Source: Bursaphelenchus xylophilus
Lineage: Eukaryota > Nematoda > Chromadorea > Rhabditida > Aphelenchoididae
Direction of reading: 5' to 3'
Length of the DNA: 64,000 bases
Assembly: GCA_904066235.2 (NCBI GenBank)
Contig: CAJFCV020000004.1
Span: 11,284,001 to 11,348,000, forward strand
Position 1 is the stretch's first letter, and the number at the start of each line of letters is the position of its first letter. This document shows positions 33,811-48,612 of this stretch, piece after piece. The notes beneath the pieces were generated by a model that saw nothing but the letters and a program-made list of their open reading frames with translations, made no database searches and had not been told where the DNA came from. The position numbers were made by a program, and so were the translations under genes.

Positions 33811-36800
33811 TTATTTTCCAGCCATAAAGGCTTCAATTTCTTCTACCGTACGTGGTACCTGGTTCATGCATTCATTGCCGGCGGCCAAAATGATGACGTC
33901 ATCTTCGATGCGAACACCGCCGAATCCTCGGTATTCATTCAGTTTGTCCACGTTGAAGTAATGTTTGATGTCCGGGTTCTGGAGTGCTCGATCGAGCAGC
34001 TGAAAGTGTAAAAAATTGGATTTGAGTTTGTGTTACCGTAACCGTTAAGGAAGTAAGGTTAGAAGGAAAGGCAGAAAAAAACAAAAAAAGCCCTGTCACG
34101 GCCGGGAATAGGCTCGGTGACAATTTGGGAGTCGGCCGGCTGGGTTTGCCGACTCCTTTTGAGAATCTTACAATTCTCCTACCTTTTCGCGGGGGTGCTG
34201 GGGATGGCGACGTTGACTGACAACAACAACAGTTGATTTTGCGATATATTTATTGTGGGAATTTTCAGGCTTATATATTATCATCAAAAGGGCGGGATTA
34301 GCTGGAGTGTCCTAGGGCTGGGCCAAGGGGGTTGGGTCCGGCCCTAGGACACCTCATAAGTGGAATCATAAAGCAGGAGATACGGAGTGAATGATCCGTG
34401 CTTACTCAGGCGTTTGCACGGAAAGCGGTGATTAAGAGGCAGGGGAAATGAATGTTATGGCAATCAAGAATCTTCTCGGCCCAAATTAATCATCCAATCG
34501 GCCTATTGAGAGAATTCCTTTTTGCTATTTTTAGTATCGCGAGGGTGTCGCGACACTCCGGGGGAGGGAGAGGGAGGAAGAAGAGGAGGGAATTTTTGGG
34601 TTACAAAAGTTTGGAACAGGGTACAGAGATTACAAAATTTTACAATAAATTTATAGTGAGCTTATCTAATTACAATAAATTTTATAGACAGGTTATCTTA
34701 TCTTTTTAGAAAGTGGGTTCCTCCGGTTCCTCTGGGCTGGTATCCGGTTGGCGGTGGCGGGAGTCGATATGTAGAGGGGCGCGGCAATTGGGGCACGTCG
34801 GGTTCTGATGTTGGTTGAGCTGGCTGGTGATCCACTCGTCTAGGCAGATCTGGTGGAAGAGATGACCGCAGTATGTGCGGGTCACTGGTCGGTCGTCCCC
34901 GGTGAGGCATATGGGGCACTGGTCCTCGTGTGCTCTGGAGGTGCTGGGCCCAGGGACGTCGCGGGGGGTTCCCAGGGCGCACAGCGAGGTGTGATGCCAT
35001 TGTTTGCAGTGTAGACACGTTTTTCTGCTTGGGCATCTGATGACATCGTGTCTTCCCAAACAGTTGACGCACCGGTCGCCGATAAGTCTTCGGCGGACCG
35101 AGCGGTCAACAACGACCGTGCAGTCGAGAGGGTTATGGTCAGCCGAGTTACAGTAGGGGCACGGCTGACGGCGTGCTTTATGGGGCCTCCTCATTTCTTG
35201 CTCCAAATTGTGGCGGAGGGAGGCGGCCAGGGTTTCGGCTTCATCCAGTCTGGTCAAACTTCGCCGATGCCTTTCTTCCTCGTTTTGTAACAAGGCGCTG
35301 AGCTGATTGATCTCCTCGGTGAGCTGAGCGCCCACCTCCGCTGCGGCTAGCTGCTGGTTTCGCGAGGCCTCCCGGAGTGCTTGGATTGCCCGGTAGTGCC
35401 TCTCGTTGTCTTCTGCTAAGATGCGCCGGGTTCGGCGAGCTTCGTTCAGGGTGTCGGTGAGGGCCTGTGCCTCCTCCTCCGCCTGGTTACGGGCGGCGGC
35501 GGAGGAAGAGGCTTCGGCAGACAATTCCTCGTTGCGTTTCCGGAGTTCTTCGTTCTGTCTCAGGAGGCGCTTGGCCTCCTCCTCCGCCTGGTGTCGGGCG
35601 GCGGTGGAGGAGGAGGCCTCCGCGGTGAGCGCTTCGTTCTGCGCTCGGAGAGATTCTACCTCGCGTTGAAGTTCCTGGATTGCGTCCGACATGGCAGGAT
35701 CTTGTGGTGCGGACGTAGATGGGCCGGGGATGTCGGCGAAGTTGATTATGTCTAGCAGCGGAATTGGGCGGCAGTGGCGGTGGCGTTCGATAAATTCTTC
35801 GTATTGAGCTTGGGTGAGGTCATCCAGGTATCTGCAGCTGTACTGGAAGACTTTGAAGAGTTCGGTCGCGACGGTTGGGTTGTTGGATTTATCCGGATGT
35901 AGACGGAAAGCGGCCCGCCTCCGGATGCTGGCCCATCGGGACTGTGTGCGGCTTTGGAGATTTATCAGACCTAGTGCTAGGATGGTTGAATATATGGTAA
36001 GCAGGTCTTCTTCGGAGGGGTCGAAAAGATGGCGACATTCGTCGTTTTGCTCCTTCTGTTGGTTTCTTTTTCCACTCATGTCTGGAAAGATTGGTATGAG
36101 ACGACCGGCCATAGATTCCGGATTTTTTCGGGGGAGGGTGTTGTTTTTCAGCATTACAGTTCATTTGTAAGTGAACTGCTAGTGGTGACGCTCCCGCGGA
36201 GGGAAGTGTTGAGGAACCGGAGGGGATGTGGGGTTTAGGATACGAATTTTGACGACAATGGTTAGGATAAAGCAGTGGTAAAATTTTGGCAAAAGATGTG
36301 GGTTGCGTGGAAAAAACTTCTCCCGATCCATGTTTTTTTTTTTTTTTTGTGTGTCGAAAAATAGGAGTTGTGGTTTTTGCTAAGGACGAAAGGGATCGGA
36401 AGAAGGGTAAGGGACCAGTGGTTGGTTAATGGTGGTGGGGCTTAGCCCGTTTGGGCAGGAGACCACGGCTTTCGGGGAGTTGTTGGTGCGGGCGAGGGTC
36501 GAGAAAGATCGCAGGTGGGGTGGAAGGAAAATTGTAGCGGAAAAGAAAATAAAGCATGATAACGACAGTTGCCATAACAAGTAACATAAGGAGGGGATAT
36601 TGGAAGATTAAAGAAGGGAAAAACCAAGCGACTTTTTCCAGAAATTGTGTAATATCGCGTAGAATGTTTCCGATCGGAACTTCATCGGCGGCTCTTGCCC
36701 ACCACTGTCCAAGTTCCTTGGACGGGGGAGGAGGAATCGTCATGGTGTGAAGTTTTCCGAAAAGGTGTAGAGTTCCGTCAGATTTATCGGAGCAGGAGTA

Positions 36801-39800
36801 GGAACAGTTTTTGTTGAATTCAGCTTCATCGGTGTAGATGTTGAGTTGGAACGTAATGTTGTTGCAGGGAAATGATTGGACATTTGTTCCATCACAATCG
36901 ACATTGATAGTCGTTGGGAATTTGGATTGGCAGAAAATGATAGCTTGTGCTCCCGAATGACAAGACTTGCATCCGGTCAATTGTTGTATCACGGAAGGTG
37001 CACACTTTGCACGATAATGAAACGTAGATATCGTTGCGTTTTGGAAGGCGATGTGAACCAGAATGGCGGTCTGTTGAGCGATTTCTGCCGTGATGGTGTG
37101 ATTTTGATAGTCGATCTTTATTGGACCCGAAGTGAACGGGAGTTTTACCTCCTGGCTGTGCCATAGGTCCATAGGGTTGCGGTAGTTGCATGTGCATTTG
37201 GTGTGGAAGTCGCTGGGGCTGCATGAACAAGTTTCATGGGGGAATGTACACTGGAATCTTCTGGCATCGTCTTCTGAGCGGCATTGGAAGACCCCTAGGC
37301 TGCCCGGAGCAGGTTGTTGGGGGTCAGAGGCTGCGGTGGTGATGGCCTCGTTGGTTCCCACTTTTATAACCATAGGTTGATACAGAATCGGTACCTGCGG
37401 AGTGGATATGGCCTGTAGAGTGAAGATCTCGTCTCCGACGTGGACGGGCTTGGCGGCCACCAGTTGTATGAGGGACGTTTTGCCGCCCACTTCTAGGATT
37501 ACTGACGCGGTTATAGTCCACGTGGGGCAACGTCCTATTAGGTAAATGTTGTTGGTTTTTGGTAAGGCATAGAGGCGCCAGAAGTTACATCCCGGACTGC
37601 AGAGGAAGCAGCCGCAAGTGGCGCACCCACAGGCCCGGGTACAGTGGGAGTAGCCGGGGGCCCGACGGGCTAATAGTGAAAATTCGGGGAGGTCGTCGGA
37701 CGTGGAGACCTTTTCACATTGATATCCTTGACAGTACGAATTCGATGCCATATCACATCGATGGACGGATTCAACTGTAGTGGCAAAGTCTCGTGTATGG
37801 TAGCCGTATTTAAAGTTGCATTTAAACTTTAGCTGGAGGGTAGTCAAGCGGAGCATATATGATCCGTTGAGTGGGGTGGTGATTCGAAGACAGCTTGTTT
37901 CGTTGATGGGCCGTAAACTGAGTTGGATGGATTGGGAGAGGGAACAGGTCTCGACGTTGGATTCTTCATCAAAACGGCAGTTGTGAGTGCTCGCGGTTAA
38001 GGCGGTTACCTCTGAGCAACCATTAACCCACGGAAAGAGTCCGAAGAGGAGGTAAATGGTGCCTGTCGTCCGAAGAAGACGTCGAATTCGGTGTGGAGCC
38101 TGGTATCGTGGTTGCCGAGGGTTTTGTGGACGGCATCGAGTCCAGATCCATCTGGCTGTTCGCCAAATCCAAGTGTGTATGGCGAGTAGGACGCAAATGA
38201 AAGGTATCAGAGCGAGTAATACTCCCATCCAGATGAAGATTCCTGTTTTTTGGATAGCTGTGCAGCAATCCCACCTCCAAGGGGCACAGTCCTCTGCTGT
38301 ACAAGGGTTGGGCAGGGAATCCGTAGCCGAAACGGTGTTAATAAGAACTACGCCTAGAAAATAGGCGACTAGTGTGGTGGAAGAAGAATTCTTTCTCGGA
38401 TTCCGTCGGGGTGGCGGTGGGCTATCTTGCTGGTTGGACGTTCTTGGGATTCCTTCAGTTGCGTTTGGGATCTCGGGTTGAAGTTCGAGCGGATAGAGGT
38501 GTTTCGGGGATCGGTGGAGGACCAAATGGGGCGGTGTAGCGAGTTGAATTTGGATTTTGTTTGGAGTGACGATCTCCAAGATCTTCGCCATTTGCCACTT
38601 TCCTCTTCCGAGTCCTTCCTCATGGACAAGCACAACTTCTCCTTTCACTGGGAGTCGATCGATCGCAGATCTGTCCTGTTTGTGGGTTGTTTGATGTCGC
38701 TCGGCCAGAGTGAGGAGGTATTCCGAGCTCCAAATTTTCCAGAATTGGTTAATGATTCTTTGTTGCTTTCTCCAAAGATCCATTAACTTGGTGACCGATG
38801 ACGGCTTAGGCTCGAAGGTGCCATCCTCGGGGTCCCAAGGGTCGAGGAGAGGGACTCCGATGAAGGCTCCTGGTTGGATGCAATCGATGGGTCGGATCGG
38901 GTGAAATGATTGATCATCGATTTTTGAGGGTACAAATGTCAGTGGACGGGAATTGACGATAGCTTCTACCTCGGTTAATACCGTCATCATTTCAGGCAGC
39001 GAGATCTTTTTCTTGCCGATGGCTCTCTTGAGTGCCGTCTTCGTTACTCCCATCAATCTTTCCCACGATCCGCCCTGCCAAGGGGCAGATTCGGTGATGA
39101 AGCTCCATTTAATTCCGCGCGTTGCCAAATACGATTGTACGTCTTCGGATTCAGCCCATGCAAGGGTGATTGCTTGAGTTGCGAGGCGGAATTGGGGGGC
39201 ATTGTCGCTCCAGACTTCGGCTGGGGTGCCCCGTCGAGAGATGAATTTTCGAAGGGCCTGGAGGAAGGCGAGGGTGGAAAGGTCCAATACGAGCTCGAGG
39301 TGTACGGCCCGTGAGGTGAGACAAGTGAACAAACAGATGTATGTTTTTATGGTGTCGGTAGTGGTGATGCTGACGGAGATGGGACCACCGTAATCCAGGC
39401 CTGTGTAGTGGAATGGAGGGTTTGGTTGTACACGCATGTGTGGGTAATTGGGAAAGGGTGGAAGCGCGAACGGCTTCAACGTTCGGCAAGAACATTGACG
39501 AATGCTGGATTGGACAAGGCGTCTGGCTTTTGGAATCCATACGCGGTAACGAAGGTGACATAGCGTAGTTGAAGTGGACGCATGTCCCAATAGTTGGTGG
39601 ATATGATGGATGTAGAGTGCGGTCCCGTAATGGGGAGATGGTAGGAAGATGGGGTTTTGTGCTGTCGTAGGGAGAGAAGCATGGGCGAGCCGAGTACGAC
39701 AGCGAAAAATTTGTTCAGAATCTTGATACAGGTTGAGCTCGTGCTGTTGAGCTTTTGTTGGGGGTCGTTCTTGTTGCATTAACCGAAAGAACAATTTCTC

Positions 39801-42800
39801 TGCAGTATGAAATTGGGTTGTGTGTGGGGTGGACGGCGTGGTGTACACGGAAAGCCAGGGATATTTCCGTTGAGCGGTATTGCTGGTCGAGAGTACGGTC
39901 GCCAGGTACTGCAGTACACACACAAGGGTGTGGATGAGGATGGTCCAACGGCTGAACCGAGTAGCATCGATGAGGGGTATAGGTGCCGTTGTTACTTCGG
40001 CGACAGCAGTGATATCCTCCGGAGCTTCGTAGAGTTCCGGTTGATTTGGCCATTGGCTTGGTGACTGCCGGAGCCAAGCGGGACCTTCGAGCCAAAGTTG
40101 TGATGGTGGACAACGTTTGGTAGCCGAGTCAGCTGGGTTTTCTGCCGTGGGAACGTATCGGATCGAGGCGTTGGGGACATTCTGCCAGATGGAGTTGACT
40201 CGATTCTTGACGAAGATTGGAAGTGTTCGACGAGAAAGAAGCCATGTGTGGACGATCCGTGAGTCTGTCCAGAGGAAGATGTTGGTGAGCCGAATTGACG
40301 GTAGCTCAGTCGCAATTGTGCGAGCAAGGTTAGATCCAATGAGAAGTCCGAGGAGTTCCAGGCGGGGCACGGTCATGCCTTTTATGGGTCCCAGACGGCT
40401 TTTACCGATTAGGAATGACACATCGATAAGGTCGCCTGACTGAGTGCGAAGATAAGCGACTGCGGCATAAGCTCGGTCAGAAGCGTCACAGAACACGTGA
40501 AGTTCAGCGGAGTCAGAAGAAAATGGGCATACGTGGCGTTGGAGTGTGGGCATTGTGGATGTCTCGAGTAACGATTGAATTTGATTCCATTCAGAAAGAA
40601 GGTCTTCCTGTAGTGGGATGTCCCAGTCTTTACCTTGTTGCCACAACTTTTGGAGGAGGAGTTTAGCTTGGAGGATCAAAGGTGCATGAAAGCCTAAGGG
40701 GTCGAACAGGCTAGCGATCCTTTTGAGGATGGTTCTCTTTGTGGCAAGCTGTTCGGAGTTTGGGGTTTTCCAGGGCACGAGAGTGAGGATATCGGTGTTT
40801 GTATTCCACTGTAGGCCTAGAAATTTGACAATTTCCGGGATCTTTTCTCCTTGTTGTTCCAAAAAGGCCTTGACTGTTGGATGGCTGGATTGAAACTCTC
40901 GGAGGTTCATTTTTGCTTCGCTGAAGATTTGTCGTGAGAGGTGATAAGCGTCGGTAGCTTCTTGGACGTCGGAACATTCGATAAGTACGTTATCGACGTA
41001 CGAATTTTTTCGCATTGCTTTGGCCAAGGGATGTGGGTAGTGTTGGAGATGGTAATCCACGCAGGCGGCGAGGAGGAAGGGTGATGAAACGACTCCAAAA
41101 CAAACCCGATTGAAGCGGAAGACCATCAGGTTGGCACCTTCCGCGGGTTGGGTGACGTCACGGACCCAGAGGAAGCGGGTACAGTCGCGGTCACGTTCGT
41201 CCAGTGATAATTGGAGGAAAGCTTTCTCAACATCGGAAAGCAATGGAATCTTGGTAACACGAAATCGAAGAAGCATGCCAACCAGTTCGGGGAGGAGGAC
41301 TGGTCCGCGGAACATGTGGTCATTCAGGCTCTTTCCGTTGGGAGTTTTACAGCTAGCATCATAAACCACACGTAATTTGGTCGTGGTTTTGTCGGGGGTG
41401 ATGACGGGTTGGTGGGGGATGTAATGGAGAGGTCCCTGACTCGGTTGATTGAGAGGGACTTCCTCGATAATGCCCTTGGTGAGTTGATCGGAAAAGATCT
41501 CACTATATTGTTGGAGGAGGGTTGGATTAGCGCTAAGGCGGCGGAGTGTAGAACGGAGTCGCCCGAGGCAACGGCCGAAATTGCTTTGAAGAGTGGTAGG
41601 AGTGCCTTTCCATGGCCATCGACAAACGTATCGACCTTCTTCATTACGAGTGACGGTTTTAAGGAAGGCTTCCATTGCGAGGTCGTCGTCGTTACGACTG
41701 GGGTCGTCGTGGATTCCCAAGTGTTCGAGGGTCCAGAATTTTGTGAGTAAGGAACTGAGCTGCTTTTGTTCCGTATGTTTCACGCAAATCGACACAGGCT
41801 CGGTTGAGGAATCTTTGGGGGTCTCCTCTGTCGGAATGGATATGTGGAATACTTGTGGGGAATGCTGGGTGGTGTATGCTGTATCACAAGTTGGGCAAAG
41901 AGTAGCATACTTGTCCTTACCGCCGACCCACTGAGAAATATCGGTGGGATCGGTGGGATTCGGGACAATCCTTTTGCTGTAAGAGGCCGGTTCACCACAG
42001 ATATCACAATTTCCGAGCAGAGTATGACGGAGATCCGCAATGGCCCATAATGGAGCGAAGTTGTAGTTTGTCTTCGGCGTAGGATTGTCGAGATAAGTCC
42101 CGTTTAGGAGTCCTGTGACGATGATAGTCTTACCGAGGTCGCGAATCTTCTGGCAGACTACAGCCAATTCGGGGAAAAAATGGGCACCGTCGATGGCCAA
42201 CACGTCGTAGGCATTCAGTAAGGCAATCGTACTGTTGAGGTCGGCGATTCTCATGCAGGCGTGGGTCTGGCCGTCATGAGTCACAATTTGGTTATCTTCG
42301 GTGTATCTGATGTCCGCAACGTGCCGTATTCTCAAGATGCGGGATTGCTCAGGAAACTCATTCAATTTTTCCAAGAGGAGAGTTGTTTTTCCTGACCACA
42401 TAGGTCCAGCGATGGCGGTGATGGATCCTTCTGTTGTAGGCAGAGGGATCGCCATTTCCATCATGTAAGAATGGTGGGTATGGGCATTGGTTCGAGGCAC
42501 TGGACTTGCCTTTCCTTCTCCATAGATGAATCGCCCTATCTTTGAGTGTGAGAGCTTGAAGCCCGAGGGGAGGTCGACTGGCTCTCCGGTGCTCCGACAG
42601 ATGTCGAGATTGTCCATTCCGAGAAGGATGGAGGGCCGGACTTTCGTCACGGTCAGTGGCGTTTCATGGAAATCGGTAGGGAGGGCAGCCAGCATCGAAC
42701 TGGTCATATTGGGAATGGAGAGAACGGAGATTTTGGTTGTCTTCTTTGGGTGCGCTGGATCGCGGATGAGTAAGTTGTACGTTTTGGTGTTGAAGGTCTC

Positions 42801-45800
42801 GCTGTGATCTCCAAATGTGTTGACGTTGACTGTGGTTATCTCGTCGGAGAGGGGTCTCAGTTTTAAGTTGGACGCGAGTTTTTCGGTGATGAAGCTGCGA
42901 GTGCTTCCGGAGTCACTGAAAAGAACAGCAGGTCTGCTTACCTTCGAGATGTCGGGGTTGATTGCTTCCACTTCGGTGGTCATGAGTAGAGTTGTTGATA
43001 GTTTGGGCTTTGGCTTGGTATTTGTCAGGAAGGCTTGTTCTGACTGGTCATTGTCGTCCAATTCATCTTCGTTAATAACGACATGAGTCTTTTCCTTTCG
43101 TGGATTGGAAGGCGGCCTAGTTTTAGCCGAAGGGGTGGTTTTGGCGGGTATCGGAGCAAAGGTTACTTTCTGCGCTGGTTTGCTTTTTTGAGCTGGTCTG
43201 CTTGGCCCGGCCGGGTTGTTACGGAAGCACATTGAGGAGTGGTGCCGTTGGTTGCAATGGCGGCAGGAATGTTTGGAGGGGCATTCGGGGACGAAATGTC
43301 CAGGTAGAAGACAATTGCGGCACAATTTCTTCAAACTTGCTTGTCGTTGTCGTTCTTGGGGTTCGCCATATTTGGAACACTTGTAGGTGAGATGTCGGCC
43401 TTCGCACAGGTGGCAGGAGGGCCCATTGGGATTTTTCTCGTCTTGGTCAGCGTTATAATGAGAGATCAATTGGTCGGGCCGTCGGGGTGTATTTGGCCGA
43501 TTTGGGAGGCGTTTCTGGTCTCCATGGTTGTCGGAAATCATTCGATCGATATTTGCCTCTTTGCGGAGGACATCTCCTACGGCATCTAACATTTGTTTTC
43601 CTTTAGGGATGATGGTGGCATCCTTGTATACTTTTTGGAGTACGTAGCGCGGGAACTTGCTTTCAATGACTTGGGCTAGGAGGGTGGTGTCGGCTGGGTC
43701 ACCCATGGACAGGAGTTGGGAGTACAATTGGTGTAGACGGGACCATCCTCGGTAGAGGTTGATGGATCCCTTGTCAAGGATACGGAATTGAAGGATTTCT
43801 GCGCGGAGTCTGTGGGTGACTCTGAGGGGGTCACCGTAGAGGTCCTTGAGGGTTTGGACGGCAATGTTGTAGTCGGCGTTAGAATTTCCAAGGTGGGAAA
43901 GTGCTGCTTTTGCCTCACCTTCGAGGCATGATCGGAGTTGGAAGAGCTTCAGGCACGGTTCCAACTTTCGGTTGTTTACCATGGCGTTGAACAGATCCCA
44001 GAATTCATTCCATCGGCTTGGGTTGCCGTTGAATTGGGGGATTGAGACGTTTGGAAGGAACAGGAGGTCCATCCAGCCGGGAGAGGGCTGGTTTAGTTCG
44101 GCGGGAGGGTTTACCTGAGTCGCAGGAGTAGCCGGCGTGCTGGGACGGGTCGGCGTGGTTGGGGTGGAGAACACGGCCTCATTAGAGGGGACGATGTCCA
44201 GTGTTCCCTCGCCATTGTCGTACAGGTCATTAGGGTCGGTCAGTTCGAGTCGGTTTGATGTGGCTTCGCGCAGAAGCCCGATGCGGAGTCGGAGGTGGTC
44301 GACGGCGGTGCGACCTTCCTCGACGAGGGGGCGGAAGTCTCCATGAGCGGTAATGTAGTTGTCGAAGGTGGTCTGTTCGGATGGGTTGGTTTCGATGATG
44401 CGTTGCCATTGGTTGTGGAGCTCGTCTAATCGTTGAACATTTCGGGATAGTCTTCGGAAAACATCATGGGCAGTTTCGAAGGTGTTATAGAGTTGCTCGT
44501 CATTGATTTCAGCGGGATTTAGGTCTATTTCCTTTTGGATTTGAAGGTAGGATCGGAGGGCATCTTGTAGGCGGCGTTTTGCCAAGCCGATTGCTTGGCG
44601 GATTTTGCCGGAAGGGGAGTCCATAGTTCGGGGGGACTTTTTTGAGTTGATATCGCCTTTTAGCACAAATCAGATAAGCACAGGTAGAAGATTCAGCAAG
44701 TAAAAGGATACAGGTAGAGGTTGGGATCAATCTTCGAAGCAGGGATCCTGCGTTGGGGACTTGCGCGTGGTCTCCGCGGTAGTTGAGCTTCCCTTTAGGG
44801 AGCTGACTTCTTAGCTACCCTTTTTTGGGAGCTGCCGTTGGTTTCAGAGGCGCGATCTAGGTCTACCTTTGGCGGACCTAAATCACGTCGGGGTCACCAA
44901 AAATTGTCACGGCCGGGAATAGGCTCGGTGACAATTTGGGAGTCGGCCGGCTGGGTTTGCCGACTCCTTTTGAGAATCTTACAATTCTCCTACCTTTTCG
45001 CGGGGGTGCTGGGGATGGCGACGTTGACTGACAACAACAACAGTTGATTTTGCGATATATTTATTGTGGGAATTTTCAGGCTTATATATTATCATCAAAA
45101 GGGCGGGATTAGCTGGAGTGTCCTAGGGCTGGGCCAAGGGGGTTGGGTCCGGCCCTAGGACACCTCATAAGTGGAATCATAAAGCAGGAGATACGGAGTG
45201 AATGATCCGTGCTTACTCAGGCGTTTGCACGGAAAGCGGTGATTAAGAGGCAGGGGAAATGAATGTTATGGCAATCAAGAATCTTCTCGGCCCAAATTAA
45301 TCATCCAATCGGCCTATTGAGAGAATTCCTTTTTGCTATTTTTAGTATCGCGAGGGTGTCGCGACAAGCCCTTCGATTTTCTTCAAATCTCACAAACTAA
45401 ATCTGAATACAGCACAAATCAATGTCCAAAATTTTAAGCACAAGTTGTGTAGTGAGGGCCGAGATATTCCAAAAGCGAGAGATAATGAAAAATGAGGAGT
45501 CAGTCAGAGAGAAAAACACTTTTTGGCTATATCTTTCTTTTTTTTTATCTTTCCCAGTTTCGCGTGGAAAACACTGATATTTTCTGGAAAAATTACTCTA
45601 TACTTTAGAAATATGTGCAAAAAATTTCACGCCAAAATTTGCATAAAAGTGCCACATTATCGTCAAATTTCCGATCAAAAAATCTCGATAGAACAACATA
45701 TTTCTAGAGTCAAAAATCTGACATAAGCCTTCTAAAATGTTGCTCTAAATTCGTCCAACATTTTCATCCAATTCTGCGCCCTTCAATTCCACTTATAAAC

Positions 45801-48058
45801 TCCAATTCGACCGTAATCCAACCCCAAAAAATCCCCTACCGTATCAATAAAATAGCAGCCCGGTTCGATCGTCAGGACCATTCGTTCCTTCAGGGTTCTG
45901 GTAAGTCTCAACGACTTCAATCCGGGCAAATGTGAACGTGGCAGGGCGTCGCCCAGGTAGCCACCACAATCATGAACATCAAGTCCAAGAAGATGACCAA
46001 GTCCATGCGGCTGGAAAACGGCGCCGACCCGCTTCTCCACCATCTCGTTCACATCTCCGTTGAGGATTCCGGCCTTCACCAAGTGTTCGAGGACCACTTT
46101 TTCGGCCAAAATATGCATATCGTTCCAGCGGACGCCCGGTTTCGCGTTCTCGAAGACGGCGCAACGTGCCGCCCACACGGCGTTGTAGATGACTTTCTGT
46201 TTTTCGGTGAACTTCCCGTTCGCTGGGAAGGAGCAGGTCACGTCCGAGGCTGAAATCCAAATATTTTTATATCGCACTAGGCAAGAGTTTGAAATTTTGA
46301 TTTTTAACTTCAAAATCAGCAGCTTAGAAGGCAAAATGGGCAATAAAAATATTCTAAGGGTATTCTTTGTTAATTCTATCAAACGAAAAATCGCACAATA
46401 CTTTGTTTTCTACATAAAATTTACAAATTTATATTACACTAGGTCGGATTCGGAAATTTTGATATTAGGCTCAAAAATCAGCTGTTTCAAAACCCAGTCA
46501 AATAATCAACGCGTGTCGCAAACCTTTTCCACAAATTCTGTAGCAAAAAAATCTCATTTTATCTTGTTTTAGACATCAAAATAAAAAAAAATTATATTGT
46601 ACTAGGACCAAATTAAAAAATCCCAAAAGCCCTCTCTTACCGTAGCAATTGTATTCCGGACCCATATCGAACAAGCACATGTCGCCGTCTTGGATATGAC
46701 GGTCATTTGGAGCTCCAGCGTGGCCGTAATGCAGAACTGCGCCGTTTTCGCCGCTAAAATTTAATGAAATCACGATTTTTTGCCATTTTACACAGCCTTA
46801 CAGAGGGCTGTAAAATTCAAGAAGCATTATAAAGGGTCAAGAGACTTCTCATAAACTTCTGAGGCCCAAATGAACCCACCTTCCCGCGATGCAAGTATAG
46901 GCAATATGCCGACATCCTCCAGTGTAATATGAGATGTGTTTGAAGAGACTTTCCAGCTGGTATTCGTACATTGGGGGCTTGATATGGCGCATCACCTCTT
47001 TGTGGGCCTCGGAGGCGATTTTGGCGGCGTAGCGGAGGACATCCAGCTCTTGGTCGGTCTTGATGACGCGCTCTTCGGCGATTATCGGGTACAAAATTTC
47101 CGTGTCTACGTTGAAATCGGATTTTCCCTTGAATTCGGCGGGCTCCAGAACCTTTCCACTGTCCGTGTTGGGGGCTTTCTAAAGTCGGAAAGACAAAAAA
47201 AAATCAAAAAAAATGCAAAAGCTCACCAATAACAGCAAATTTTTGACGCTATTAGTCTTCAAGTAGTCGGAAATGACGTTCTCCTCATGAAAGACAACAT
47301 CATCCACTTCGTACTTCTGCTTGAACCAACTTTCCGGCTTGATGCTAAAAAAATTTTGATCAAACTTGAAGAGGTATGAAATTTCAGAAAATTGCCTAAA
47401 ATACGGTTAAACTTTGACTAAAACAACGTGCCACAGATTAAAATTGCATCTAAGATAATCGTTCTTCAGCTAGTTATCGAAATTAAGCGTGAAAACGCGC
47501 AAAAAACACTCAAAAATTCAAAAAAATCAAAAATTTGTGATCGATACCTAAAATAAGGTCCACAGGTGGAAAAAACAGAGCGAACACCTCCGATTTTGAT
47601 TTTAAATATCCCATAGCACTTTAAATTTACTAACTATAGCAAAACATTCCAGAAGAACATTCATAGTTTCTTGCAGAATCCAAAAAACCTAAAATTAGGT
47701 ACCAAGTTGACTAAAACAACGCAGCTAAACCCCTCTGAGCTCACCATCCTTGCCAGATTGCATAATCTGGATGTAATTTCGGCGGGAATAACGTGCTTTT
47801 TCCAGAGTTCACATCAATAATTGCGTAACAATCGGCTTCATGGACGCCAAACGCCCAGAAAAAATAAGATTCCTGGCGGAATGCCAGCTCCTCGGCGTCA
47901 GTATTGTATCTAGTCTTCTCTTCACCTCCTTGAAGGACGACCGCAGTGTTTGCGGAGACTTTACCCGACTTTTTTAGGGCCTCAACGAGACGGCGACGAT
48001 TTTCGGCGAAGAGGGAGGCCGAAACTTTCAGTGTCTGATTTCCACGCCAAAACGACAT
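33811..48058 (-). CDS. PEPD: prolidase (Xaa-Pro dipeptidase)
   Basis: Hydrolyses dipeptides with C-terminal proline in the cytosol (M24B metallopeptidase). Exons in transcript order: 48058-47745, 47344-47227, 47178-46880, 46753-46641, 46249-45840 and 33999-33811; all phases join to give 480 residues, close to the usual ~490. The metal ligands are all present: D273 (LFDMG), D284 (ASDVTC), H367 (HGLGH), E410 (VLTIEPG) and E450 (RIEDDV). [10 protein letters not shown] and CSFPANGKF are family signatures. TTCTTCCAG six bases before the ATG suggests trans-splicing. The last exon, holding E450 and the C-terminal MAGK, is 11.8 kb from exon 5 because a full BEL/Pao element lies in the intron on the same strand. 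The gene looks intact; whether the intron is spliced well is untested. Confidence 0.95.
34094..34555 (-). repeat. 3' LTR of the BEL/Pao element
   Basis: 462 bp, identical to the copy at 44905-45366. On the plus strand it opens TGTCACGGCCGGGAATAGGC and closes GGGTGTCGCGACA. Confidence 0.96.
34556..34705 (-). other. 3' spacer with a polypyrimidine (coding strand) tract next to the LTR
   Basis: Plus-strand bases 34556-34593 are almost all purine (GGGGGAGGGAGAGGGAGGAA). In the element's own orientation that is a pyrimidine run, the opposite of the polypurine tract expected just before a 3' LTR. Only GGAG directly abuts the LTR as purine on the RNA strand. Confidence 0.7.
34706..36154 (-). CDS. 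retroelement accessory protein: J-like HPD segment, coiled coil, zinc knuckles, RING-H2
   Basis: Intact 482-residue frame with its own ATG, on the same strand as and 271 nt after the envelope stop. Residues about 50-122 resemble a J domain, with HPD at 86-88 ([13 protein letters not shown]) in the expected helix II-III loop. Residues 155-325 form a long coiled coil with an internal duplication ([19 protein letters not shown] at about 176 and [19 protein letters not shown] at about 211). Residues 332-392 hold three zinc knuckles whose spacing and the CPS(R/K)..C..C..HH..C ending match the gag knuckles of the same element. Residues 413-457 are a C3H2C3 RING finger: C413, C416, C429, H431, H434, C437, C454, C457. 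Inferred role: an Hsp70-linked or nucleic-acid-tethered ubiquitin ligase acting on host or element proteins. Likely expressed from a spliced RNA. Confidence 0.9.
   Translation of the reverse strand: MLKNNTLPRKNPESMAGRLIPIFPDMSGKRNQQKEQNDECRHLFDPSEEDLLTIYSTILALGLINLQSRTQSRWASIRRRAAFRLHPDKSNNPTVATELFKVFQYSCRYLDDLTQAQYEEFIERHRHCRPIPLLDIINFADIPGPSTSAPQDPAMSDAIQELQREVESLRAQNEALTAEASSSTAARHQAEEEAKRLLRQNEELRKRNEELSAEASSSAAARNQAEEEAQALTDTLNEARRTRRILAEDNERHYRAIQALREASRNQQLAAAEVGAQLTEEINQLSALLQNEEERHRRSLTRLDEAETLAASLRHNLEQEMRRPHKARRQPCPYCNSADHNPLDCTVVVDRSVRRRLIGDRCVNCLGRHDVIRCPSRKTCLHCKQWHHTSLCALGTPRDVPGPSTSRAHEDQCPICLTGDDRPVTRTYCGHLFHQICLDEWITSQLNQHQNPTCPNCRAPLHIDSRHRQPDTSPEEPEEPTF
36155..36425 (-). 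other. spacer, envelope stop to accessory frame
   Basis: No frame. It contains a run of about 16 A on the element strand (T run on plus near 36333-36348) and purine-rich stretches. A splice acceptor for the accessory RNA would be expected here. Confidence 0.5.
36426..38345 (-). other. envelope region of the polyprotein (phlebovirus Gc-like class II type)
   Basis: About 640 codons after the integrase. It opens with a signal-like segment ([16 protein letters not shown]), then a membrane helix ([20 protein letters not shown]), a second signal-like segment ending FPWVNG, a large cysteine-rich ectodomain with several NxS/T sites and the [15 protein letters not shown] block typical of nematode retroelement envelopes related to phlebovirus Gc, and a C-terminal anchor ([19 protein letters not shown]). 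It is fused in frame to pol, so it needs proteolytic release or a spliced RNA with an internal start. No breaks seen. Confidence 0.85.
36426..44624 (-). CDS. BEL/Pao gag-protease-thymidine kinase-RT-RNase H-integrase-envelope polyprotein
   Basis: One uninterrupted 2,732-codon frame from the first ATG (44624). Approximate residues: gag core 190-300 ([17 protein letters not shown]); three zinc knuckles 400-466; aspartic protease near 570 ([10 protein letters not shown]); TK1-like kinase 730-915; reverse transcriptase 950-1260 with YVDN near 1210; Pao-type linker and RNase H near 1383 (FCDASD); integrase 1690-1900 with the zinc H2C2 module and D, D, E near 1743, 1807 and 1855 (GLDYGG, SDNAPQF, GSWERL); DUF5641-like C-terminal module 2010-2055; envelope from about 2095 with internal signal and membrane segments, a cysteine-rich fusion-type core near 2338 ([11 protein letters not shown]) and a C-terminal anchor near 2675. 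No stop or shift separates gag, pol and env. The thymidine kinase is not a normal BEL/Pao component. Confidence 0.95.
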   Translation of the reverse strand: MDSPSGKIRQAIGLAKRRLQDALRSYLQIQKEIDLNPAEINDEQLYNTFETAHDVFRRLSRNVQRLDELHNQWQRIIETNPSEQTTFDNYITAHGDFRPLVEEGRTAVDHLRLRIGLLREATSNRLELTDPNDLYDNGEGTLDIVPSNEAVFSTPTTPTRPSTPATPATQVNPPAELNQPSPGWMDLLFLPNVSIPQFNGNPSRWNEFWDLFNAMVNNRKLEPCLKLFQLRSCLEGEAKAALSHLGNSNADYNIAVQTLKDLYGDPLRVTHRLRAEILQFRILDKGSINLYRGWSRLHQLYSQLLSMGDPADTTLLAQVIESKFPRYVLQKVYKDATIIPKGKQMLDAVGDVLRKEANIDRMISDNHGDQKRLPNRPNTPRRPDQLISHYNADQDEKNPNGPSCHLCEGRHLTYKCSKYGEPQERQRQASLKKLCRNCLLPGHFVPECPSKHSCRHCNQRHHSSMCFRNNPAGPSRPAQKSKPAQKVTFAPIPAKTTPSAKTRPPSNPRKEKTHVVINEDELDDNDQSEQAFLTNTKPKPKLSTTLLMTTEVEAINPDISKVSRPAVLFSDSGSTRSFITEKLASNLKLRPLSDEITTVNVNTFGDHSETFNTKTYNLLIRDPAHPKKTTKISVLSIPNMTSSMLAALPTDFHETPLTVTKVRPSILLGMDNLDICRSTGEPVDLPSGFKLSHSKIGRFIYGEGKASPVPRTNAHTHHSYMMEMAIPLPTTEGSITAIAGPMWSGKTTLLLEKLNEFPEQSRILRIRHVADIRYTEDNQIVTHDGQTHACMRIADLNSTIALLNAYDVLAIDGAHFFPELAVVCQKIRDLGKTIIVTGLLNGTYLDNPTPKTNYNFAPLWAIADLRHTLLGNCDICGEPASYSKRIVPNPTDPTDISQWVGGKDKYATLCPTCDTAYTTQHSPQVFHISIPTEETPKDSSTEPVSICVKHTEQKQLSSLLTKFWTLEHLGIHDDPSRNDDDLAMEAFLKTVTRNEEGRYVCRWPWKGTPTTLQSNFGRCLGRLRSTLRRLSANPTLLQQYSEIFSDQLTKGIIEEVPLNQPSQGPLHYIPHQPVITPDKTTTKLRVVYDASCKTPNGKSLNDHMFRGPVLLPELVGMLLRFRVTKIPLLSDVEKAFLQLSLDERDRDCTRFLWVRDVTQPAEGANLMVFRFNRVCFGVVSSPFLLAACVDYHLQHYPHPLAKAMRKNSYVDNVLIECSDVQEATDAYHLSRQIFSEAKMNLREFQSSHPTVKAFLEQQGEKIPEIVKFLGLQWNTNTDILTLVPWKTPNSEQLATKRTILKRIASLFDPLGFHAPLILQAKLLLQKLWQQGKDWDIPLQEDLLSEWNQIQSLLETSTMPTLQRHVCPFSSDSAELHVFCDASDRAYAAVAYLRTQSGDLIDVSFLIGKSRLGPIKGMTVPRLELLGLLIGSNLARTIATELPSIRLTNIFLWTDSRIVHTWLLSRRTLPIFVKNRVNSIWQNVPNASIRYVPTAENPADSATKRCPPSQLWLEGPAWLRQSPSQWPNQPELYEAPEDITAVAEVTTAPIPLIDATRFSRWTILIHTLVCVLQYLATVLSTSNTAQRKYPWLSVYTTPSTPHTTQFHTAEKLFFRLMQQERPPTKAQQHELNLYQDSEQIFRCRTRLAHASLPTTAQNPIFLPSPHYGTALYIHHIHQLLGHASTSTTLCHLRYRVWIPKARRLVQSSIRQCSCRTLKPFALPPFPNYPHMRVQPNPPFHYTGLDYGGPISVSITTTDTIKTYICLFTCLTSRAVHLELVLDLSTLAFLQALRKFISRRGTPAEVWSDNAPQFRLATQAITLAWAESEDVQSYLATRGIKWSFITESAPWQGGSWERLMGVTKTALKRAIGKKKISLPEMMTVLTEVEAIVNSRPLTFVPSKIDDQSFHPIRPIDCIQPGAFIGVPLLDPWDPEDGTFEPKPSSVTKLMDLWRKQQRIINQFWKIWSSEYLLTLAERHQTTHKQDRSAIDRLPVKGEVVLVHEEGLGRGKWQMAKILEIVTPNKIQIQLATPPHLVLHRSPKHLYPLELQPEIPNATEGIPRTSNQQDSPPPPRRNPRKNSSSTTLVAYFLGVVLINTVSATDSLPNPCTAEDCAPWRWDCCTAIQKTGIFIWMGVLLALIPFICVLLAIHTWIWRTARWIWTRCRPQNPRQPRYQAPHRIRRLLRTTGTIYLLFGLFPWVNGCSEVTALTASTHNCRFDEESNVETCSLSQSIQLSLRPINETSCLRITTPLNGSYMLRLTTLQLKFKCNFKYGYHTRDFATTVESVHRCDMASNSYCQGYQCEKVSTSDDLPEFSLLARRAPGYSHCTRACGCATCGCFLCSPGCNFWRLYALPKTNNIYLIGRCPTWTITASVILEVGGKTSLIQLVAAKPVHVGDEIFTLQAISTPQVPILYQPMVIKVGTNEAITTAASDPQQPAPGSLGVFQCRSEDDARRFQCTFPHETCSCSPSDFHTKCTCNYRNPMDLWHSQEVKLPFTSGPIKIDYQNHTITAEIAQQTAILVHIAFQNATISTFHYRAKCAPSVIQQLTGCKSCHSGAQAIIFCQSKFPTTINVDCDGTNVQSFPCNNITFQLNIYTDEAEFNKNCSYSCSDKSDGTLHLFGKLHTMTIPPPPSKELGQWWARAADEVPIGNILRDITQFLEKVAWFFPSLIFQYPLLMLLVMATVVIMLYFLFRYNFPSTPPAIFLDPRPHQQLPESRGLLPKRAKPHHH
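41870..42440 (-). other. thymidine kinase (type II, TK1-like) domain inside the polyprotein
   Basis: About 185 codons between the protease tail ([16 protein letters not shown]) and the reverse transcriptase opening ([13 protein letters not shown]). Order of TK1 motifs: P-loop [15 protein letters not shown]; (T)[11 protein letters not shown]; Walker B region [34 protein letters not shown]; zinc half [15 protein letters not shown]; and lasso/zinc half [14 protein letters not shown]. All four zinc cysteines are present. The canonical IDEGQFF (Glu is the catalytic base) is replaced by IDGAHFF, so activity is uncertain. Expected substrate by family: thymidine, raising dTTP for reverse transcription. 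Confidence 0.92.
44625..44904 (-). other. 5' leader of the BEL/Pao element
   Basis: Between the primer-binding site and the first ATG. The frame is open upstream to a GTG at 44666, but the first ATG is at 44624. A splice donor for env or accessory RNAs may lie here, but none is certain by eye. Confidence 0.5.
44882..44899 (-). promoter_or_regulatory. primer-binding site for tRNA-Trp
   Basis: Five bases inside the 5' LTR, the plus strand reads ATCACGTCGGGGTCACCA, the 3' end of animal tRNA-Trp including CCA. The element RNA therefore has the complementary TGGTGACCCCGACGTGAT. Confidence 0.88.
44905..45366 (-). repeat. 5' LTR of the BEL/Pao element
   Basis: 462 bp, identical by reading to 34094-34555. 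Right flank AGCCC repeats the left flank of the element. Confidence 0.96.
45440..45775. repeat. decayed interspersed-family copy in prolidase intron 5
   Basis: Contains GGGCCGAGATATTCCAAAAGCGAGAG, an AATTACTCTATACTTTAGAAATATG block and TCACGCCAAAATTTGC, matching internal landmarks of the family. It predates the retroelement insertion next to it. Confidence 0.6.
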
Positions 48059-48612
48059 TTTTTCTGGAAGAAAAGTTGTCGATTATGTAACAAACAACCT
48101 CAAAAATTTATTGCACGCAATTAAAATTCAAGTTCAAGCGCAAAATTTTTCGTCAGACCAAAAAATATTATTCATGGCAAAATTGATGGATAAGATGCGA
48201 AATTCATGTCATTTCGATCAAATTTGATGTCCAAAACACCTTACCACCTATTTTCTACTCTAATATAGCTTTTCAGCTTCGTCTGACATTATTCTAGGCA
48301 ATTTCGAAGCAAAAATGAAATTATTTTAGGTAAACGTGACCTCAAAATGACTTTATTCTTGCTTAGGTCGATCTCAAATCCTCTAAAATCTATACGACGT
48401 CTCATTTTCCACCCTATCCCAAAATATTCTCTCCCAAAAACTTCATTTCCCCACCAAAAACCTTCCAAGACCGCAAAATCAGCCAAAAATAACCAAAAAT
48501 CGTTATCAATCAAAGTAGTGATTTGTTGATAACCTTCATAATGGAGAACAAAGACTAGTCAAACAATCGGAATTTATTCTTAAAAGTTCGGCTACATTAT
48601 TTTCGCTTTTGT

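Follow-up and report, generated by a model that had tools for sequence, protein, structure and literature searches.

Why should a retrotransposon carry a thymidine kinase (TK), and does the enzyme work? The question is raised by a stretch of 64,000 nucleotides of the Bursaphelenchus xylophilus genome (the window; G000:C4:11284001-11348000, from an assembly totalling 78 Mb in 8 contigs, of which six measure 12-15 Mb). On its minus strand lies a BEL/Pao element bounded by long terminal repeats (LTRs), 34094-45366, 11,273 bp in length, with a TK domain between the protease (PR) and reverse transcriptase (RT) of its polyprotein. The original prediction for this locus recognized the domain, derived it from a host or a DNA virus, and proposed that it supplies thymidine triphosphate (dTTP) for reverse transcription. 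We think, with a probability of roughly 0.6, that an envelope-bearing BEL/Pao lineage captured a TK1-type kinase and kept it as an extra Pol domain, the catalytic base of which has drifted in B. xylophilus. The features on which the argument turns are these:

36426..44669, minus strand: Gag-Pol-Env, one uninterrupted open frame of 2747 codons, with a Met codon at 44624, close to the beginning of the frame
42798..42959, minus strand: aspartic protease, DUF1758 (E=2.3e-4, just below its cut-off), with a DSG motif within 42891-42923
41886..42428, minus strand: TK domain, PF00265 at full length
42381..42407, minus strand: TK P-loop GPMWSGKTT
42165..42194, minus strand: TK motif IDGAHFFPEL, with the Walker-B-type Asp kept and Gly as the next residue (the TK1 catalytic-base position)
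40899..41243, minus strand: reverse transcriptase, RVT_1 (7.5e-6, below its cut-off), with YVDN within 40983-41003

A search with the Pfam TK profile had been proposed as a check on the prediction, and PF00265, a profile of 176 positions, matched the piece 41700-42560 from position 1 to 175 [E=7.7e-26; 91.4 bits, the cut-off being 20.6]. The NCBIfam TK model aligned over positions 5-190 of 195 [4.5e-27], its 95.4 bits lying below the equivalog cut-off of 183. Five type II TK motifs run in order from 42407 down to 41886 within the single frame and, as had been claimed, the Pfam neighbours on either side are PR and RT. By homology, the domain is a member of the TK1 (type II) family. An AlphaFold2 model of the window's TK, computed together with six relatives (pLDDT 78, pTM 0.78), matched 71 PDB chains at E<=0.001; the best 50 of these 71 are all type II TKs, with TM-scores by target of 0.67-0.88 and a best E of 6e-14. 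In a Foldseek search of viral models the top rows were mostly TKs, led by those of squirrelpox, cyprinid herpesvirus 3 and klosneuvirus. Having been built with TK relatives, the model supports a TK1 fold and is silent on activity.

The domain is a constant part of the element. All four full-length copies in the genome (the window's on C4, one on C5 and two on C1) possess it, with the TK at 98-100% identity. Every copy is flanked by a 5-bp target duplication of its own, and within the four LTR pairs there are 0, 0, 1 and 0 differences over 462 sites, so that these represent four recent, separate insertions. The C5 copy (G000:C5:10626303-10639400) is about 1.8 kb longer than that of the window, and the fetched piece can be aligned with the window's only up to about the equivalent of 37826, in the env part. 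Above its cut-off the genome-wide PF00265 search reported only the four copies and, from a single TK1-like gene of the host, three exons, and no match in the other BEL/Pao elements of the genome, though such a search can miss short or decayed TK pieces: a relic on C2, found by protein search, went unreported. In this decayed relative (C2:9015247-9015822) the beginning of gag shows 55% identity over 131 residues, and a diverged TK P-loop (69% identical over 29 residues) comes within 100 bases after it. The genome contains more relics of the family, plus an LTR copy at 91%. One of the relics, G000:C5:2923445-2927403, is scrambled, with LTR pieces at 72-85% and gag pieces at about 66-89% identity to the element family; no TK match was found in it.

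A search of the genome with the RT returned 28 matches, namely the four copies and 24 others at 28-39% identity, some of the latter being fragments of one element. The protease motif lies 283 residues upstream of a fixed point of the RT query in the TK-bearing family versus 49-60 residues in TK-less loci, which sets the insert at approximately 223-234 residues; this spacing was measurable in 5 of 16 inspected TK-less loci (a first motif pattern gave 0), and three of the five are identical stretches.

Two database proteins, P0002 (2743 aa; labelled 'jgi' and 'lgn') and P0003 (2774 aa; labelled 'lgn'), the labels of which we read as metagenome-type, combine PF00265 [1.7e-38 and 1.9e-32, respectively] with BEL/Pao and G2-envelope domains. 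Their TK occupies the same slot as in the window element, while gag, protease and RT differ deeply from it; identity to the window is 40% (P0002) and 32% (P0003) for TK and 70% and 69% for the RT piece. The prediction had allowed that the segment might be lacking from every other copy of the element, and its presence in the four copies and in both of these proteins supports the view that it belongs there. An RT tree was built from 20 rows, namely the window copy with two of its three sisters, P0002, P0003, and 15 of the other 24 genome matches (fragments and near-copies were omitted), with no other retroelement family as outgroup. All five rows that bear a TK fall into a single clade (100/100), and the TK label needs one change of state. 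A public-database protein which is 98% identical over the PR-TK piece bears the name Bursaphelenchus xylophilus; one B. xylophilus copy is entered in the database as 'Thymidine kinase, cytosolic' and P0002 as 'thymidine kinase', so that the domain had been annotated by sequence before.

Whether the domain is an enzyme depends upon its active site. An extract of PMC8757434 describes Glu98 of human TK1 as taking the proton of the thymidine 5'-OH, with Met28, Asp58 and Arg60 at the site, and one of PMC7694900 names Glu98, Phe128 and Tyr181 for thymidine binding and four Cys that bind zinc. In our alignment the P-loop and the equivalents of Met28, Asp58, Arg60 and Tyr181 are kept in the window copy, P0002 and P0003. 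The window copy and P0003 have the full set of zinc ligands (Cys153, Cys156, Cys185 and Cys188); P0002 has another residue in place of the last of these, and a His close to it. The model of the P0002 TK, made from four rows, is weaker than the window's (pLDDT 69.6, pTM 0.66).

Several observations weigh against a captured kinase that was kept for its function. The position of Glu98 is occupied by Gly in the window copy and by Asp in the other three full-length copies, a major point which had gone unnoticed in the original prediction, and at the position of Phe128 the window copy has Tyr, and P0002 and P0003 have non-aromatic residues. TK evolves much faster than RT (32-40% versus about 70% identity between lineages). 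Only two relatives were found outside B. xylophilus: the TK piece alone (41820-42461), run against 5.8 billion proteins, gave 659 candidates, none at E<=0.001, and the P0002 TK alone gave 101 candidates with only P0002 itself among them, though such searches are blind to distant TKs (the P0002 query missed P0001 and P0003), so that absence there means little. Finally, the host has a TK1-like gene of its own with an open spliced reading, and a supply role for the element's TK would be additive.

Both distant relatives have Glu at the Glu98 position, and an enzyme-like site is therefore most likely ancestral. The Gly in the window copy makes its activity doubtful: this copy is probably non-catalytic, and across the B. 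xylophilus family the domain probably either has low kinase activity or does no more than bind nucleotides. Judging from this one residue, it may in B. xylophilus have been reduced to the binding of nucleotides. The proposed supply of dTTP is plausible for the lineage, uncertain for the B. xylophilus family and unlikely for the window copy.

One alternative takes this further and holds that, at least in B. xylophilus, the TK is kept as a nucleotide-binding or oligomerising Pol module, for example as a dTTP/ATP sensor or a scaffold for RT. It would account for Gly or Asp at the catalytic base while the P-loop, the Walker-B-type Asp and the four zinc Cys stay, and for the purifying selection on the domain as a whole (below). 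TK1s are, according to the extract of PMC8757434, dimers of dimers which are inhibited by bound TTP, properties that would suit a sensor or scaffold. The Glu of both relatives, pointing to an ancestor that was probably an enzyme, argues the other way. Asp, moreover, can at times serve as a catalytic base. We regard this alternative as possible, if rather unlikely.

Where did the kinase come from? The TK tree has 15 rows: three element TKs, the host, human and Trypanosoma brucei TKs, six bacterial, two archaeal and one phage TK (a further phage sequence, L072, was omitted as near-identical to another), with no viruses of eukaryotes. Those of the elements form a group of three (92/85, not starred), which is joined with the TK1s of host and human and the TK of T. 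brucei (97/97). Forcing the element TKs with the host gene alone made the tree 10 log units worse (p-AU 0.046), in what is a weak test as two of the element branches are long. The host gene (C4:5079374-5081033; six exons placed by GT/AG sites, with no transcript seen) is 30% identical to the element TK. The element TKs thus appear, on weak tree evidence, to stand next to eukaryotic TK1 and not to be clearly offspring of the host gene; of the predicted capture from host or DNA virus, the eukaryotic affinity has held up, and descent from the host's own TK1 alone is mildly disfavoured. A recent capture from the B. xylophilus TK1 gene, considered separately, is unlikely given the 30% identity and that test. 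A bacterial origin, a first impression from the stretches 'AGL', 'ADE' and 'CGxPA', is unsupported by the TK tree. A search of genome contigs gave 88 stretches with two relatives, both being TK-like genes of archaeal metagenome-assembled genomes.

The donor might also have been a eukaryotic DNA virus and not a cell, which would be compatible with the explanation that we prefer. The element-TK profile scores poxvirus (132 bits), T. brucei (132 bits) and human TK1 (about 129 bits) nearly equally, and viral TKs head the Foldseek results given above. Of the scans of viral contigs, by single sequence and by alignment, one returned no pattern match and the other 43 stretches, none encoding a relative; nor does the TK tree include viruses of eukaryotes. 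We consider a viral donor possible, if rather unlikely.

Could the TK be a recent and functionless passenger, captured by chance in one element and then spread by copying? Its fast evolution relative to RT would agree with this, as would the presence of the catalytic position among the few amino acid differences between copies. However, comparison of the window copy with that on C5 shows 3 nonsynonymous and 10 synonymous differences in TK (p 5e-4, normalised ratio 0.12), and with C1, 4 and 12 (p 2e-4, normalised ratio 0.14), where the neutral expectation is a nonsynonymous fraction of approximately 0.71 and the two C1 copies, being the same in TK, are counted once. The TK is, from these counts, under purifying selection between copies. 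RT is tighter, at 0 to 4 and 1 to 16 (nonsynonymous to synonymous), and the protease piece is without significant constraint (3 to 3 and 4 to 1), so that TK is not the weakest part of Pol. The same slot in two relatives with deeply different gag, protease and RT, together with the diverged TK P-loop in the decayed relative on C2, further speaks against a passenger, which we judge very improbable. An artefact of assembly or annotation that joined a host TK gene to a retroelement, for which we found no supporting evidence, is practically negligible in view of the clean target duplications at four loci, which are spread over three contigs, an intron-containing host TK1 gene elsewhere at 30% identity, and the same layout in proteins from other sources.

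Under the explanation that we favour, the capture of a TK1-type kinase, most simply a single event, would have preceded the separation of three or more elements that are now deeply diverged, and the TK would have been retained as an additional Pol domain between protease and RT. Made within Gag-Pol, the kinase would be produced in fixed ratio with RT and would travel with it, as its position and the selection upon it suggest; it may be packaged with RT or released with it by the protease. Thymidine would then be salvaged to thymidine monophosphate (dTMP) near RT, raising dTMP/dTTP in cells with small nucleotide pools. Somatic cells of nematodes are largely non-dividing. In the B. xylophilus family the catalytic-base position would subsequently have drifted to Asp in three copies and to Gly in the window's. 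A bolder version, which we put forward tentatively, is that the Pol of this clade holds a working TK, packaged with RT and making dTMP on site, and that the loss of the base in B. xylophilus is the mark of an enzyme that has recently become a binding module.

Retroelements are generally believed to draw on the deoxynucleoside triphosphate pool of the host, a dependence which host defences such as SAMHD1 exploit. If our explanation is true, a Pol-borne nucleoside kinase in one BEL/Pao clade represents a supply-side answer to low dTTP, and suggests that some retroelements have come to provide for part of their DNA supply themselves. It makes testable whether nucleotide supply limits retrotransposition in non-dividing animal cells, and Glu, Asp and Gly at the catalytic-base position offer a natural series for an enzyme domain which is possibly becoming non-catalytic.

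The remaining features of the element, including a second open reading frame (ORF), are as follows:

45367..45371: target-site duplication AGCCC, right
44905..45366, minus strand: 5' LTR, 462 bp
44882..44899, minus strand: primer-binding site, complementary to the 3' end of host tRNA-Trp(CCA)
43632..44033, minus strand: gag, DUF1759 (PF03564, 1.1e-19)
40260..40742, minus strand: Pao peptidase A17/RNase H region
39093..39617, minus strand: integrase, H2C2 zinc-binding (above its cut-off) and rve core (below its cut-off)
38562..38774, minus strand: DUF5641
37053..38018, minus strand: envelope, Phlebovirus_G2 fusion-protein domain
34706..36160, minus strand: second ORF, 484 aa
34094..34555, minus strand: 3' LTR, 462 bp, same sequence as the 5' LTR
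34089..34093: target-site duplication AGCCC, left

The LTRs have TG...CA ends, show 0 differences within the pair, and fall inside the 0.2-1.2 kb range given for Belpaoviridae (PMC8742986). The Pao-type A17/RNase H region was recognized through PF05380 [2.5e-19 and 1.7e-22] and the Phlebovirus_G2-type envelope as two pieces [2.2e-17 and 2.6e-48, Pfam]. Knuckles of the CCHC type are visible in the sequence between gag and protease, with Pfam knuckle scores below cut-off. The Pol order of PR, RT, RNase H (RH) and integrase (INT) is kept, with TK inserted between PR and RT, the PR, RT and rve scores being below their cut-offs. The primer-binding site starts five bases past the 5' LTR; its 15-base pattern occurs 14 times in the genome, in the four full copies, two relics and eight places elsewhere, and the three of these eight that were checked are all tRNA-Trp genes. 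Rfam and tRNA scans of the window gave no match. Directly upstream of the 3' LTR in the sense of the element (34556-34595, minus strand) is a long pyrimidine-rich stretch, and a polypurine tract is not obvious.

The second ORF displays a weak J-domain-like stretch (PF00226, E=0.01, below cut-off), a coiled coil as read from the sequence, a Gag nucleocapsid-like CCHC cluster (33% versus the element's own Gag nucleocapsid) and a RING-H2 finger at 34781-34924 [PF13639, 2.6e-9]. The frame is open in each of the four copies, and partial copies or relics of it occur on C1, C2, C3, C4 and C6; its product is possibly a ubiquitin-ligase accessory protein. Host gene fragments with M24 peptidase and aminopeptidase P N-terminal domains adjoin the element at 45783-48082 (minus strand).

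The Belpaoviridae profile of the International Committee on Taxonomy of Viruses (ICTV) lists capsid, nucleocapsid, PR, RT, RH, INT and an Env-like protein, and no kinase (PMC8742986). In the main-text portions at hand, the words kinase and dUTPase are absent from a survey of metazoan BEL/Pao elements (PMC3118150), and thymidine and dUTPase from the paper on Atlas virus (PMC9094657). Searches of open-licence papers yielded none that describes a TK in an LTR element, treats TK together with this nematode, or links the nematode with BEL/Pao, a weak negative as the spelling 'BEL/Pao' may escape the search.

Among the closest known systems is the nematode branch of the Belpaoviridae (BEL/Pao, genus Semotivirus) with a phlebovirus-like Env, exemplified by Atlas virus of Ancylostoma ceylanicum in the consulted part of PMC9094657, with which the window element also has the RT motif YVDN in common. 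Both share LTRs, a DUF1759 gag, protease, Pao A17/RNase H, integrase, a phlebovirus-type G2 envelope and 5-bp target duplications. The window element differs in its TK between protease and RT and in the extra J-like/CCHC/RING ORF. Its 11.3 kb compares with 4-10 kb, and its tRNA-Trp(CCA) primer with tRNA-Arg or tRNA-Gly, in the ICTV profile (PMC8742986); we take that range as non-excluding and the tRNA choice as typical and likewise non-excluding.

With the TK1-like kinases (PF00265: human TK1, vaccinia TK and bacterial TKs) the element TK has in common the fold, P-loop, Asp/Arg loop, Walker-B-type Asp, zinc-binding cysteines and the Tyr of the GGxxxY stretch. Unlike them it resides, intronless, inside a retroelement polyprotein, and the catalytic-base position is changed in the B. 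xylophilus copies. The dUTPase of lentiviruses and betaretroviruses is likewise a nucleotide-metabolism enzyme in or near the Pol of a reverse-transcribing element; the two folds are unrelated, and where dUTPase lowers dUTP, a TK would raise dTMP.
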